Source: Tomitella fengzijianii
GTDB lineage: Bacteria > Actinomycetota > Actinomycetes > Mycobacteriales > Mycobacteriaceae
NCBI RefSeq assembly: GCF_007559025.1
Contig: NZ_CP041765.1
Location: forward strand, 616,679 to 680,678
Length of the DNA stretch: 64,000 nt
Reading direction: 5' to 3'
The position numbers and the translations under genes are program-made. Of this stretch, positions 34,857-40,978 are shown one piece after another. Position 1 is the first letter of the stretch. The number at the start of each line of letters is the position of its first letter. A model generated the notes under the pieces. That model did not search any database and was not told the DNA's origin. It worked only from the letters and a program-made list of their open reading frames with translations.

Positions 34857-35672
34857 ATGCTCCTGGCCGTCGATGTGGGCAACACGAACACCTCGCTGGC
34901 GGTCTTCGACGCGGAGGCGCCGGGCGGGGAGCCGGTCCTGCGCAGGCGCATGCGCACCGACGCGCGGCAGACGGCCGACGAGATCGCGCTGATCGTCCGC
35001 GGGCTGCTGGGCGAGCGCGCCGATGCGATCACGGGCGTCGGGGCGCTGGCCACGGTGCCGTCCGTATTGCGTGAACTGCGGCTGATGCTGGAGCGCTACT
35101 GGCCGCACATCCCGCACGTCGTGGTTGCGCCGGGAGTGCGTACCGGCGTCCCTCTGCTGGTGGACAACCCGAAGGAGGTCGGCGCGGACCGCGTGATGAA
35201 CGCGCTCGCCGCGCACCACCTGTTCGGATGCCCTGTCATCGTCGTCGATTTCGGCACCTCCACCCGCGTCGACGTGGTCAGCGGTGCCGGCGAGTTCCTC
35301 GGCGGGGCGATCGCCCCGGGGATCGACATCTCGGTGGACGCGCTGGCCGCCCGCGGGGCCGCGCTGCGCAAGGTGGAGCTGGCCCGGCCGCGTTCCGTGG
35401 TGGGCAAGAGCACCGTGGAAGCCCTGCAGTCCGGCATCGTCTTCGGATTCGCCTGCCAGGTGGACGGCATGGTGGAGAGGGTGCGCAAGGAGCTGCCTGA
35501 GTTCGCGGCCGACGACGTGGCCGTGGTGGCCACCGGCGGCCTCGCCGAGGTGGTCCTGGGGGAATGCCAGTCAATCACCGATCACGAGCCGGACCTCACC
35601 GCCATCGGCCTGCACCTGGTCTTCGAGCGCAACCGCGCGGGTTCGCGGGCCGGCCGCCGCCAGGTCCGGTGA
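34857..35672 (+). CDS. coaX: Type III pantothenate kinase
   Basis: 271 residues. Phosphorylates pantothenate in coenzyme A synthesis. ASKHA-fold motifs: LAVDVGNTNTSLAVFD (phosphate 1), DNPKEVGADR, VDFGTSTRVDVV (phosphate 2), and ATGGLAEV (adenosine). It follows panD by 2 nt; DUF2520-panC-panD-coaX therefore form a pantothenate to CoA unit. Confidence 0.95.
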   Translation: MLLAVDVGNTNTSLAVFDAEAPGGEPVLRRRMRTDARQTADEIALIVRGLLGERADAITGVGALATVPSVLRELRLMLERYWPHIPHVVVAPGVRTGVPLLVDNPKEVGADRVMNALAAHHLFGCPVIVVDFGTSTRVDVVSGAGEFLGGAIAPGIDISVDALAARGAALRKVELARPRSVVGKSTVEALQSGIVFGFACQVDGMVERVRKELPEFAADDVAVVATGGLAEVVLGECQSITDHEPDLTAIGLHLVFERNRAGSRAGRRQVR

Positions 35673-35700
35673 CGGTCTGTGCGTCCGCGGCCGGATGTGG

Positions 35701-35706
35701 CATAAT
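35701..35706 (+). promoter_or_regulatory. -10 element of the cysteine-rich leader ORF
   Basis: CATAAT ends 7 nt before the GTG at 35714, so transcription should begin at or one base before that codon. Confidence 0.65.
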
Positions 35707-35713
35707 CGCCGAC

Positions 35714-35836
35714 GTGAGTATCGGTACAGACTCGCGGCATGATCGTGTTCAGGCCGTGAGCACGCGCAGCGCGCGCCCGGGTTTCGCCCGGTCCGGTGCT
35801 GCCTGCGTGTGCCGTCCGGAGTGTTGTCGAGGCTGA
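35714..35836 (+). CDS. Leaderless cysteine-rich leader peptide (putative attenuator uORF)
   Basis: 40 codons from GTG to TGA. The -10 CATAAT puts the transcript start at the GTG. Residues 31, 33, 37 and 38 are Cys: 4 of the last 10 residues, in an otherwise Arg/Ser/Ala-rich peptide. The stop is 58 nt before the first ATG of the rhodanese-like gene. This layout matches the cysteine-responsive attenuators described in mycobacteria, where ribosomes slow at Cys codons when cysteine is scarce and downstream expression rises. A very short gene is annotated at the same place (Rv3599c) in M. tuberculosis, as I recall. Confidence 0.7.
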   Translation: MSIGTDSRHDRVQAVSTRSARPGFARSGAACVCRPECCRG

Positions 35837-35887
35837 TTCCCGCCTCCACCTCCGCGTAGCCACGGCTGCGCTTCTCACACTTCGGAG
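35816..35887 (+). promoter_or_regulatory. Possible attenuation/anti-Shine-Dalgarno switch
   Basis: CTCCG at 35850-35854 can pair with CGGAG in the leader ORF (35817-35821) or with CGGAG of the Shine-Dalgarno (35883-35887). A ribosome stalled at the Cys codons, or covering the first partner, would alter which pairing forms. This is structure-by-eye, with short stems. Confidence 0.35.
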
Positions 35888-35888
35888 T

Positions 35889-35924
35889 ACTTTCATGACC
35901 ACTTTCATGGCCACTTTCATGTCC
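35889..35924 (+). repeat. Three 12-bp units, each with an in-frame ATG
   Basis: ACTTTCATGNCC occurs three times in tandem (35889, 35901, 35913), giving ATGs at 35895, 35907 and 35919 in one frame. Confidence 0.85.
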
Positions 35925-36326
35925 AACGGTGTCGCAGCACCGGCCTCATCGATCCCCGCGTCCGCCTACACGGCCGTTATCGCGGGCGGCGCCGTCGTCG
36001 TCGACATCCGCACTCACGCTCAGCGTGCCGCAGAGGGGGCCCTCCCGGGTGCGCTCGCGATCGCCGCGGACCTTCTCGAAGCGCGCCTGGACCCTTCGTC
36101 GTCCGCGCGTCTGGGGGTCGCCTCGGACCCGCGGGTGCGGTGGGTGCTGATCAGTGACGACGGCACGCTGGCATCGATGGCGGTGCAGGCGCTGCACCTG
36201 CTCGGCGTCCGCAACGCGTCGCACGTCGACGGCGGTTTCCTGGCTCTCGAGCGGCGGGGACTCGTCGCCGCGGGCGACTCGGCGGCGCATGTCCGCCGCG
36301 AGGCCGCGGCGATCACCGCGCACTGA
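35895..36326 (+). CDS. Rhodanese-like domain protein with Ser in place of the active-site Cys
   Basis: 143 residues. [21 protein letters not shown] is the first rhodanese segment; [17 protein letters not shown] is the active-site loop. In the related actinobacterial rhodaneses that I recall, this loop starts with Cys (C-x-E-G-Y-x-S pattern); here S87 stands at that position, so sulfur transfer is unlikely. [13 protein letters not shown] is the last segment. In many actinobacteria a cysteine dioxygenase gene precedes such a rhodanese; none is here. The start is ATG 35895, with GGAG 7 nt upstream. Two further in-frame ATGs are possible starts. Confidence 0.75.
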
Positions 36327-36402: not shown

Positions 36403-37983
36403 GTGAGTGACAATGCGCCTGATTCCCGCAGTCCCCAAGACCCCGGCCGGAATGCGGTGCCTGCGGGCAAGCCCGGAAAGGGGCGATCCCACGGCGCCGA
36501 CGAATCGGCGCCGGAGCAGCACAGGATCCGCGCCGCCAAGCGGGAGCAGATGCTGGCAGAGGGGATCGAACCGTATCCGGTGGCGATCGACTGCACGCAT
36601 TCACTCGCTGAGATCCGCGCGCAGTATCCCGATCTGGAGCCGGACACGCAGACCGGCGCGACAGTCGGAGTCGCGGGACGGGTCATATTCGTCAGGAACA
36701 CCGGCAAGCTGTGCTTCGCCACGTTGCAGGAGGGCGACGGCACGCAATTGCAGGCGATGATCAGCCTCGCGGCCGTCGGCGAAGAGCCGTTGGCGCGGTG
36801 GAAAGCGCTGGTGGACATGGGCGACATCGTCTACGTCCACGGTGAGGTGATCAGTTCACGGCGCGGCGAACTGTCGGTGATGGCCGATTCCTGGGCGATG
36901 GCGTCGAAGTCGCTGCGTCCGCTCCCGGTGGCGCACAAAGAGATGAACGAGGAATCGCGCGTACGTCAGCGCTATGTCGATCTGATCGTGCGCCCGGATG
37001 CGCGGCGGATCGCGCGTGAACGCATCGCCGTGATGCGCGCGCTCCGCGACTCCATGGACTCGCGGGGGTTCCTCGAGGTCGAGACCCCCATGTTGCAGAC
37101 CATCCACGGCGGTGCGGCGGCGCGTCCGTTCGTCACCCGTTCGAATGCCATGGACATGGACCTGTACCTGCGGATCGCGCCGGAACTGTTCCTCAAGCGT
37201 TGCGTGGTCGGAGGAATCGACCGGGTCTACGAGATCAACAGGAACTTCCGCAATGAAGGCGTGGATTCCACCCACTCGCCGGAATTCGCGATGCTCGAGA
37301 CCTACGCCGCGTACGGGACGTACGACGACTCCGCCCGCATGACGCGTGAGCTCGTCCAGGAGGTGGCGGACGCCGCCTTCGGAACCCGTCGGCTGACCCT
37401 GGCGGACGGCACCGTCTACGACGTCGACGGCGAGTGGACGGAACTGGAGATGTATCCGTCACTCTCGGAGGCGCTCGGCTGCGAGATCACCCCGGACACC
37501 ACGATCGCCGAGCTCACCGTGCACGCTGACCGACTGGGTGTCGACGTGCCGGCCAAGGCCGTGACGCACGGAAAGCTCGTCGAGGAGCTGTGGGAATTCC
37601 TTGTGGGCGATCACCTGCATGCGCCCACCTTCGTGCGCGACTTCCCGGTGGAGACGTCCCCGCTGACCCGCCAGCACCGCAGCAAGCCCGGGGTCACCGA
37701 GAAATGGGACCTGTACGTGCGGGGGTTCGAGCTGGCGACCGGCTATTCGGAGCTGGTCGATCCGGTGGTCCAGCGTGAGCGCTTCGAACTCCAGGCGCGG
37801 CTCGCCGCGTCCGGGGACGACGAGGCGATGGTGCTCGATGAGGACTTCCTCGCGGCCATGGAGCACGGAATGCCGCCCACCACCGGAACCGGAATGGGCA
37901 TCGACCGGTTGTTGATGGCGCTCACCGGCCTGGGAATCCGCGAAACAATTCTCTTCCCGCTGGTCAAGCCGCTGCAGGATTGA
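36403..37983 (+). CDS. lysS: Lysine-tRNA ligase, class II
   Basis: 526 residues. An OB-fold tRNA-binding domain (about 60-190, [21 protein letters not shown]) is followed by the class II catalytic core: motif 1 [14 protein letters not shown], motif 2 NRNFRNEG[13 protein letters not shown], and motif 3 [13 protein letters not shown]. The first 40 residues are a low-complexity extension. Start GTG 36403 follows a TACGCT -10. It lies 76 nt after the rhodanese-like gene and before lsr2, as lysS does in M. tuberculosis. Confidence 0.96.
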
Positions 37984-38851: not shown

Positions 38852-38894
38852 TTAGTTTCTGGCGGTCGGGCGAATTCTATGGGGAGATGTGCGG

Positions 38895-39911
38895 ATGCGG
38901 ATATCGTGGGCAGGCACGTTTCGGTGTTCAGGCGGACACGAAGGCCGGAGGCGCCTGCGACGCGTACTTTCGCAGGCGGCGATCGTGGTGTCGGCCGGGT
39001 TGCTGGCATTCGGCACTGCCGCGCCGACGGCCGCCGATCCGCTGCCGGTGCCGCCGACATTCTTCGCCGGCATTCCGTATGAGCTGCTGAATCCGGGCGG
39101 CTCGTTGCCCGGGGTCAACGATTGGGGTTGCAAGCCCAGCGCCGAGCACCCGAATCCGGTGATTCTCGTGCATGGCACAGGCGGGGGCGCGCAGACCAAC
39201 TGGGGTGCGATGGCGCCGCGCACCAAGAACGCGGGCTATTGCGTGTATGCGCTGACCTACGGGGTGAATCCGGGGACTCCCTGGCCGCTGAGTGCGATGG
39301 GCGGGCTGACGCGGATGCAGGATTCCGCGCAGGAATTGTCGGTGTTCGTCGACAGGGTGCTGGCGGCGTCCGGGGCGCAGAAGGTCGACTTCGTCGGGCA
39401 TTCGCAGGGCACGCTGATGCCGAACTACTACGTGAAGTTCCTCGGCGGCGCGCCGAAGGTGGACAAGTACATCTCGCTGGCGCCGCTGTGGAAGGGCACG
39501 ACCGCCGGCGGCGCGAGCGAGTTCACGGCCAAGCTGGACGCGGCCGCGAAGACGAATCCGGCGGCCCGCCAGTACGCGGACCTGATGAACGAGTACTGCG
39601 GCGCGTGCTCGCAGATGTCGGCCGGGTCGCCCTTCATCGAGAAGATGAACGCGGGCGGCACCTACGCGCCCGGGGTCCAATACACGAACATCATGACGAG
39701 GTACGACGAACTGGTGGTCCCGTGGACCGCCGGGTACGTCGAAGCGCCGAACGCGACGAACATCGTCATGCAGGACACCTGCGCGCAGGACTATTCCGAC
39801 CACCTCGCCATCGCCGCCTCGGTGCGCTCGCAGGCGATGGTGCTGAACGCGCTCGACCCGGCCCATCCCATCCCGGTTCCGTGCGTGTTCGTGCCGCCGT
39901 TCCTCGGGTGA
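38895..39911 (+). CDS. Secreted lipase/esterase (class 2 lipase family), copy 1
   Basis: 338 residues. A signal peptide (basic start, AAIVVSAGLLAFGTAAPTAA core) exports an alpha/beta hydrolase. Nucleophile motif GHSQG with Ser at residue 170; the oxyanion region is LVHGTGG; NPVILVHG and the lid region follow. Several paired Cys (WGCKP, YCVYA, YCGAC, TCAQD, PCVFV) suggest disulfides. The start is ATG 38895, 8 nt after GGGGAG; GTG 38889 is too close to that site. A second copy lies 56 nt downstream. Confidence 0.9.
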   Translation: MRISWAGTFRCSGGHEGRRRLRRVLSQAAIVVSAGLLAFGTAAPTAADPLPVPPTFFAGIPYELLNPGGSLPGVNDWGCKPSAEHPNPVILVHGTGGGAQTNWGAMAPRTKNAGYCVYALTYGVNPGTPWPLSAMGGLTRMQDSAQELSVFVDRVLAASGAQKVDFVGHSQGTLMPNYYVKFLGGAPKVDKYISLAPLWKGTTAGGASEFTAKLDAAAKTNPAARQYADLMNEYCGACSQMSAGSPFIEKMNAGGTYAPGVQYTNIMTRYDELVVPWTAGYVEAPNATNIVMQDTCAQDYSDHLAIAASVRSQAMVLNALDPAHPIPVPCVFVPPFLG

Positions 39912-39967
39912 CGGGCAGCCGATCCTCCCGCTCATCACACGCGGGACAGAACACACCAGGAGTGCCG

Positions 39968-40978
39968 ATGCACAATGGGAATGGAATCCGGAAGGCACGG
40001 CGTGCCGGTGCGCATCGCGGTCGCCCCGCAGGACTGCGCCGGCTCGCACGCGCGGCGGTCGTCGTGACGGCCGCCCTCGCGGCATTCGGAACGGCGGCGC
40101 CGGCGGCGGCCGAGTCGCCGACCGACCGGATCACGACGCTGGTCGACACGTACAAGCCCGAGGTGATGAATCCGGGCGGTTCGTTGCCCGGGGTCAACGA
40201 TTGGGGTTGCAAGCCGAGCGCCGAGCATCCGAATCCAGTGGTCCTGGTGCACGGCACCTTCGGCAACCAGCAGATCAACTGGGGTGCGATGGCGCCGCGC
40301 ATCAAGGATGCGGGCTACTGCGTGTACGCGCTCAACTACGGGGTGAATCCGGGCACGCCGTGGCCCCTCAGCGCATTCGGCGGGCTGACGCGGATGCAGG
40401 ATTCCGCGCAGGAGCTGTCGGTGTTCGTCGACAGGGTGCTGGCGGCGTCCGGGGCGCAGAAGGTCGACTTCGTCGGGCATTCGCAGGGCACGCTGATGCC
40501 AAACTACTACGTGAAGTTCCTCGACGGCGCGCCGAAGGTGGACAAGTACATATCGCTGGCGCCGCTGTGGGAAGGCACGGACGCCGTCGGCCCGTTGGCG
40601 GCGGGCACGGATGCGGCAGCGGACCCGGTCACGCAGGCGGCCGGGGAGCTGATGGACCGGTACTGCGGCGCGTGCTCGCAGATGACGGCCGGGTCGCCCT
40701 TCATCGAGAAGATGAACGCGGGCGGCACCTACGCGCCCGGGGTGGAGTACACGAACATCATGACGGAGTACGACGGGACGGTGGTCCCGTGGACGGCCGG
40801 ATACGTCGAGGGCCCGGACACGACGAACATCGTCGTGCAGGACGGCTGCCCGCAGGACCATTCGGATCACTCGTCGTTGGTGTCGTCGGTGCGTGCGCAG
40901 GCCCTCGTCCTGAACGCGCTCGACCCCGCCCACCCCGTGGCAGTGCCGTGCGTGGCCGTGCAGCCGTTCGCGGGATGA
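39968..40978 (+). CDS. Secreted lipase/esterase (class 2 lipase family), copy 2
   Basis: 336 residues, very close to the upstream lipase, with signal peptide ARAAVVVTAALAAFGTAAPAAA, nucleophile GHSQG (Ser 172), and the same Cys pattern. The N-terminal 45 residues and a middle stretch (GTDAVGPLAAGTDAAADP) differ from copy 1. ATG follows AGGAG. The two copies probably form one transcript. They hydrolyse acylglycerol-type esters outside the cell; specificity is not known. Confidence 0.9.
   Translation: MHNGNGIRKARRAGAHRGRPAGLRRLARAAVVVTAALAAFGTAAPAAAESPTDRITTLVDTYKPEVMNPGGSLPGVNDWGCKPSAEHPNPVVLVHGTFGNQQINWGAMAPRIKDAGYCVYALNYGVNPGTPWPLSAFGGLTRMQDSAQELSVFVDRVLAASGAQKVDFVGHSQGTLMPNYYVKFLDGAPKVDKYISLAPLWEGTDAVGPLAAGTDAAADPVTQAAGELMDRYCGACSQMTAGSPFIEKMNAGGTYAPGVEYTNIMTEYDGTVVPWTAGYVEGPDTTNIVVQDGCPQDHSDHSSLVSSVRAQALVLNALDPAHPVAVPCVAVQPFAG

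Follow-up and report, generated by a model that had tools for sequence, protein, structure and literature searches.

A cysteine-rich, putatively leaderless reading frame upstream of a rhodanese-like gene in Tomitella fengzijianii belongs to a conserved leader family and is a probable cysteine-sensing translational attenuator

The short cysteine-rich open reading frame that precedes a rhodanese-like gene in T. fengzijianii is not a chance ORF but a member of a widely conserved leader family, in which the leader and the downstream ribosome-binding site co-vary. The leader probably senses cysteine and attenuates translation of the following gene, so that expression would be turned on when cysteine is short. 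The ancestral target would have been a cysteine dioxygenase (CDO) together with a rhodanese, with subsequent loss of the CDO in the genus studied here. The window referred to below is the whole stretch of 64,000 nucleotides that was analyzed, and the leader, its RNA elements, the rhodanese-like gene, coaX and lysS are on its forward (+) strand.

Results

The leader ORF. The sequence gave a reading frame of 40 codons (35714..35836), with a GTG start at 35714, a TGA stop at 35834-35836 and the C-terminal sequence CVCRPECCRG. A -10-like box, CATAAT (35701..35706), is located 7 nt 5' of the GTG, so a leaderless start is expected. The four cysteine codons, TGC at 35804-35806 and 35810-35812 and TGT at 35822-35824 and 35825-35827, are codons 31, 33, 37 and 38, all among the last ten. 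The sequence-only reading had described an ORF of this length, spacing and cysteine content, and the sequence confirms it. In a census of the window that included ORFs of 8-60 codons on both strands, with every ATG and GTG start counted (n = 1305), five had at least four cysteines in the last ten codons. Three of the five were the leader ORF read from different starts, and only one, the leader ORF at 35714, had a -10-like box 7 nt upstream.

The upstream neighbor is coaX, encoding type III pantothenate kinase (34857..35672; NF009845, 388 bits), and lysS, encoding lysine--tRNA ligase (36403..37983; NF001756, 629 bits), lies downstream. The leader ORF had no match in the NCBIfam search, and an Rfam search of 35600-36000 gave no match up to E 1. 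Farther downstream, inspection of 38889-40978 revealed two neighboring, closely similar ORFs for putative secreted lipase-like proteins.

Conservation across genomes. Homologous short ORFs ending in ECCR[GD] were found at the same place in all five genomes of the window's genus, and the ECCR end was common to all five even though the ORFs diverge ahead of it. When the last seven codons were turned into a degenerate pattern (ECCRG-like, synonyms allowed), it matched 184 of 401 family genomes, representing 17 of 31 genera, while the reversed control pattern had no match among the genomes listed. Only one (L038) of the 30 loci fetched from this pattern was without a CDO or a rhodanese.

The end of the leader, CCGGAGTGTTGTCGAGGCTGA (35816..35836), is nearly fixed throughout the family at the nucleotide level. 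Across 66 distinct leaders, the two terminal cysteines were encoded by TGT in 131 instances and by TGC in one, compared to 434 TGC and 95 TGT in the long ORFs of the same loci. The leader ended in GAGTGTTGTCGAGGCTGA in 42 of the 66 and in GAGTGTTGTCAGGGCTGA in 14. A scan of genome contigs with a fixed 18-base core identified at least 120 contigs, 80 of them listed with titles. Among the matches listed, 110 of 120 contigs had a CDO (76) or a rhodanese (34) within 400 nt downstream of the core, and the titles were mostly those of Nocardia, Rhodococcus, Gordonia and Williamsia. The other ten of the 120 listed had neither gene nearby, and on this basis core matches outside the order (Ruegeria, Anaerolineae and others) were taken for chance.

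A Cys-Cys leader was found upstream of CDO at 16 of 18 family loci (13 of 13 in a class-wide draw and 3 of 5 in an earlier draw), the exceptions being L018 and L027. At 19 CDO loci of other families, a Cys-Cys ORF was present once with a -10 box (L026) and once without (L242). Loci of genus g29, which we tentatively take to be Mycobacterium, carried leader variants such as ...GECCRF and ...CECCRP. A box of the form NA...T was located exactly 7 nt upstream of the start in 63 of the 66 distinct leaders, a count that is partly selected because the box score had decided which start codon was used. Where a box supported the start, the leaders were 11 to 45 codons long.

Several individual loci had unusual arrangements. 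In L030 (about 940-1866), a CDO-like stretch and the rhodanese share a single open frame, preceded by a leader-like ORF ending in AQKCCLR. In L231 and L024, CDO and rhodanese are located away from coaX, behind another kind of Cys-Cys leader, the RNA of which likewise folds onto the ribosome-binding site. A record titled Kitasatospora arboriphila (L144) carries a Williamsia-like leader and is perhaps mislabeled or derived from a mixed assembly.

The genes behind the leader. The rhodanese-like gene of the window (35895..36326) encodes 143 amino acids with no cysteine at all. The match to Pfam PF00581 (26.7 bits, cut-off 22.2) bears out the name it had been given. The active site loop is ISDDGT, compared to VCSEGY in CDO-linked relatives and YCAGG in 2hhg; the catalytic cysteine is thus replaced by serine, and by its sequence the protein would not be classed as an active rhodanese. 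The gene had also been described as one not expected to make cysteine, which is correct but incomplete, since in many relatives the leader is followed by cysteine dioxygenase type I (CDO, PF05995) and then the rhodanese. CDO was detected in 136 of 201 family genomes at E 1e-15 and, at the same threshold, in none of the five genomes of the window's genus, one of which is 81% complete.

The cysteine content of the rhodanese differed with its position. At loci with CDO, the rhodanese had at least one cysteine in 72 of 72 cases, which are not independent because some loci repeat the same genome. Where the rhodanese directly follows the leader, the loop residue in the 34 contigs among the matches listed was Ser (27), Gly (5) or Cys (2), and 23 of 26 such proteins had no cysteine; the exceptions that keep cysteine were L013/L058 and L022. 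A rhodanese tree grouped most of the proteins that have lost the catalytic cysteine, although it has long branches and few columns and the label of L023 is doubtful, its loop not having been read and the protein having two cysteines. Absence of cysteine from CDO was considered as a sign of expression during starvation and rejected, since CDOs of other families that have no such leader upstream are also cysteine-free (15 of 17). A search of viral contigs gave no relative of the window's rhodanese.

The window's own genome has a second short cysteine-rich ORF, VQTSHERMMLTRRRAVDLCRLGGCCCSCC, ending in ...DLCRLGGCCCSCC, on the reverse complement of L219 (461-550; G000:C1). It is separated by about 0.9 kb, which include one longer ORF, from a tandem (two-domain) rhodanese gene downstream, and could be another cysteine leader.

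RNA structure in the window. In the folding ensemble, the end of the leader ORF forms a helix with the ribosome-binding site of the next gene. The 5' arm, UCCGGAGUGU (35815..35824), pairs with the 3' arm, ACACUUCGGA / ACACTTCGGA (35877..35886), with a probability of 0.85-1.0, and the 3' arm overlaps the Shine-Dalgarno sequence GGAG (35884..35887) of the rhodanese-like gene. A homologue of this helix is present in the alignment of family leaders. A second stem is located at the stop codon, in which 35829..35833 pairs with GCCTC (35842..35846) with a probability of 0.99-1.0.

The sequence-only reading had proposed two alternative CTCCG/CGGAG pairings, one of them hiding the Shine-Dalgarno. The motifs exist, CTCCG at 35850..35854 and two copies of CGGAG, but both pairings had a probability of 0.0 in the free leader and were rejected. 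The Shine-Dalgarno is instead predicted to be hidden by the helix between 35815-35824 and 35877-35886.

Co-variation of leader and ribosome-binding site. The leader and the downstream ribosome-binding site co-vary across the family. Single-sequence folds of most of the CDO-type leaders shown consisted of one extended stem-loop that joins the last codons of the leader to the CDO Shine-Dalgarno and, in many, to the CDO start codon; L025 had no such stem-loop. Alignment A1 was restricted to 30 of the 66 leaders, with spacers of at most 45 bases and seven odd leaders left out. Its helices were paired in 92.6% of cells, compared to 41.8-48.7% in slid versions, an excess that is partly by construction because the outer helices were named from single-sequence folds before being counted on A1. 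Changes on both sides of a pair occurred in 13 cells, compared to 3.0 in shuffled alignments, none of 500 shuffles being as high, and in the start-codon helix they occurred in 4 of 7 pairs. The homologue of the stop-codon stem was paired in 95.8% of A1 cells and was the only structure found by RNAalifold on A1 alone.

In a swap test of 38 of the 40 CDO-type loci, the native combination of leader and spacer was better by a mean of 3.6 kcal/mol, and better in 36 of the 38, with none of 10000 permutations as low as the native. The advantage was 3.9 kcal/mol (30 of 32) with one row per distinct 5' arm. For the 26 leaders that precede a rhodanese alone, it was 3.2 kcal/mol (23 of 26; 0 of 10000 permutations), and for the eight of these that are not of the Gordonia type, including the window, 3.9 kcal/mol (6 of 8; 37 of 10000).

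The pairing probability between leader and ribosome-binding site was not above that of shuffled spacers (0.45 and 0.46). Energy z-scores from the same comparison ranged from -2.0 to -7.2 for 37 of the 40 CDO-type leaders, the other three (L016, L019 and L025) lying between -0.5 and -0.9; the values for L002, L003 and L004 were -2.4, -1.9 and +0.5. The stop-codon stem surpassed 95% of shuffles in only 28 of the 66 leaders, the window not among them.

The Gordonia-type leaders, so called because ten Gordonia contigs carry the same VI[KM]SC.ECCQG leader, were aligned separately (A2; 18 leaders, L029 and 17 others). In these, GUGAUC at the leader start codon can pair with a GAUCAC close to the Shine-Dalgarno; 96.3% of cells were paired, compared to 15.7-59.3% when slid, with two cells changed on both sides. 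The complementarity, between columns 1-6 and 93-98 of A2 (L029, L039-L056 in part), thereby links the start of the leaderless ORF to the bases immediately preceding the Shine-Dalgarno of the next gene.

Taken as sequence evidence, conservation over many genera and co-variation with the ribosome-binding site support the earlier identification of the ORF as a probable leader, with a leaderless start and a likeness to the mycobacterial attenuators.

The calculated effect of a stalled ribosome. The cost of opening the region from the Shine-Dalgarno to the start codon was calculated for the free leader and with a ribosome-sized mask placed on the first terminal cysteine codon. The median for CDO-type leaders fell from 14.6 to 6.4 kcal/mol (n = 40), and 34 of 40 fell by at least 3 kcal/mol. 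The cost in the window fell from 6.7 to 3.1 kcal/mol, the predicted unpaired probability of the Shine-Dalgarno rising only from 0.04 to 0.18-0.26. In the four congeners, the cost went from 4.7 to 4.1 (L003), 2.9 to 1.9 (L004), 3.5 to 4.0 (L008) and 7.3 to 7.9 kcal/mol (L028), a change of at most 1.0 kcal/mol either way, so that within its genus the switch is clear only in the window. The median of the 26 leaders directly before a rhodanese rose from 4.3 to 5.9 kcal/mol, only 3 of 26 falling by at least 3 kcal/mol, and 4 of 12 further leaders (9 of them from genus g29) fell by that amount. Judged by these masked opening costs, the predicted RNA switch is firm for the operons with CDO and is seen in the window too; elsewhere it is weak or of opposite sign.

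Discussion

The mechanism that we favor, and consider probable, is translational attenuation. The mRNA would start at or near the leader GTG and be translated without a Shine-Dalgarno sequence. With ample Cys-tRNA, the ribosome would finish the leader and leave, and the end of the ORF would then pair with the ribosome-binding site downstream, as indicated by the co-variation in the family and the folding of the window's leader. With too little Cys-tRNA, the ribosome would stall on the terminal cysteine codons and cover the 5' arm, allowing the next gene to start. The ancestral target was likely CDO plus rhodanese; in the window's genus the CDO would have disappeared, leaving the leader in front of a rhodanese-fold protein that lacks its catalytic cysteine.

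The expected sign, on at low cysteine, follows from the CDO-type hairpin. It would agree with a transcriptome of Gordonia in which organosulfur sources gave higher levels of a cysteine dioxygenase than did MgSO4 (PMC7661421), on the assumption that this gene carries the leader. Against the favored mechanism stand the weak or reversed switch in the congeners and in leaders before a rhodanese alone, the small rise in Shine-Dalgarno accessibility in the window and the pairing measures that shuffled sequences equaled, together with two further considerations. 1) Induction at low cysteine of an enzyme that oxidizes cysteine is odd physiology; the PF05995 protein may act on another thiol or have a role in sulfur scavenging. 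2) A study of Rhodococcus IGTS8 describes a rhodanese-related protein, not necessarily the leader-linked gene, that fell in dibenzothiophene culture (PMC8557817), which may speak against the mechanism if it is the same gene.

In the lineages without CDO at this locus (the window's genus, Gordonia, Williamsia and some Rhodococcus), the sensor could have been handed to a cysteine-free, dead rhodanese serving as a starvation effector or carrier, perhaps with the sign reversed in Gordonia, a suggestion that we regard as tentative and rather doubtful. If it were true, the rhodanese-fold protein could be made without cysteine.

It is about equally doubtful that the leader, though working in the CDO operons, is in the window's genus no more than an inherited relic undergoing decay, its downstream gene having ceased to need it. 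The switch is weak or absent in four of the five genomes of the genus, none of the five has a detectable CDO, and the catalytic cysteine has been lost, all as expected of a relic. Nevertheless, the ECCR end is kept in five of five despite the divergence of the upstream part of the ORF and of the rhodanese, whose identity is down to 50% and 41% in two of the four congeners, and the rhodanese ORF is open and conserved.

Somewhat less likely still is a sensor of the opposite sign, in which the stalled ribosome would free the spacer to close the ribosome-binding site, so that abundant cysteine would turn the gene on. Such a sign would suit a cysteine-consuming enzyme, and it recasts the alternative pairing idea of the sequence-only reading in another form. 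The predicted opening cost of Gordonia-type leaders does rise with the stalled ribosome (for example, from 3.8 to 7.1 kcal/mol in L040 and from 4.1 to 8.2 in L046). However, the window and 34 of 40 CDO-type leaders go the other way by at least 3 kcal/mol, the CTCCG pairs have zero probability, and the Gordonia dioxygenase transcripts rise on organosulfur sources (PMC7661421).

Classical transcription attenuation with an intrinsic terminator would account for a stem placed directly after the cysteine codons, but in the window that stem is followed by CACCTCCGCG, which on direct reading has no T run, and the absence of an Rfam match also argues against an intrinsic terminator, making this explanation improbable. 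A functional small protein acting in trans rather than a leader acting in cis is hardly credible, for although the end of the peptide is conserved, only the last few residues are, the length varies from 11 to 45 codons, and it is the nucleotides that are conserved, together with complementary substitutions in the spacer.

The favored mechanism has close parallels. The set of loci described by Canestrari and coworkers reportedly comprises six that are cysteine-metabolic. The polycysteine leaderless short ORFs of mycobacteria in that work (Canestrari et al. 2020), as described in other papers, reportedly share with the proposed leader the leaderless start, the cysteine codons and the attenuation of translation of the next gene. 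The present family differs in having a conserved core of its own, and the window's member also in its position ahead of a rhodanese-like protein from which the catalytic cysteine is missing. Conserved cysteine-rich leaderless ORFs, in these respects like that of the window, are also located upstream of the sulfur or hypothetical genes cysA2, nirA and Rv0485 (Shell et al. 2015, PMC4633059); their target genes are different, and the accessible text names neither CDO nor such a rhodanese. Candidate cysteine leader peptides, with runs of cysteine codons near the stop as in the window, have been listed for cys operons of Mycobacterium and Propionibacterium acnes and for cbs of Bifidobacterium, which are other operons and for which no conserved terminator hairpin was found (PMC1262725). 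The mechanism here is most likely one in which the ribosome senses cysteine and so controls translation, a kind of regulation known from mycobacteria. Titles and abstract openings from a full-text literature search, the scope of which did not extend to Canestrari et al. 2020, did not name a link between the leader and CDO, and novelty is not claimed.

Ribosome-sensed cysteine control would be extended from genes that make cysteine to an operon of Nocardia, Rhodococcus, Gordonia and their relatives that encodes a dioxygenase and a rhodanese. This raises two puzzles: what purpose the induction of a thiol-oxidizing enzyme at low cysteine would serve, and what lies behind the frequent loss of cysteine from rhodaneses that directly follow the leader.
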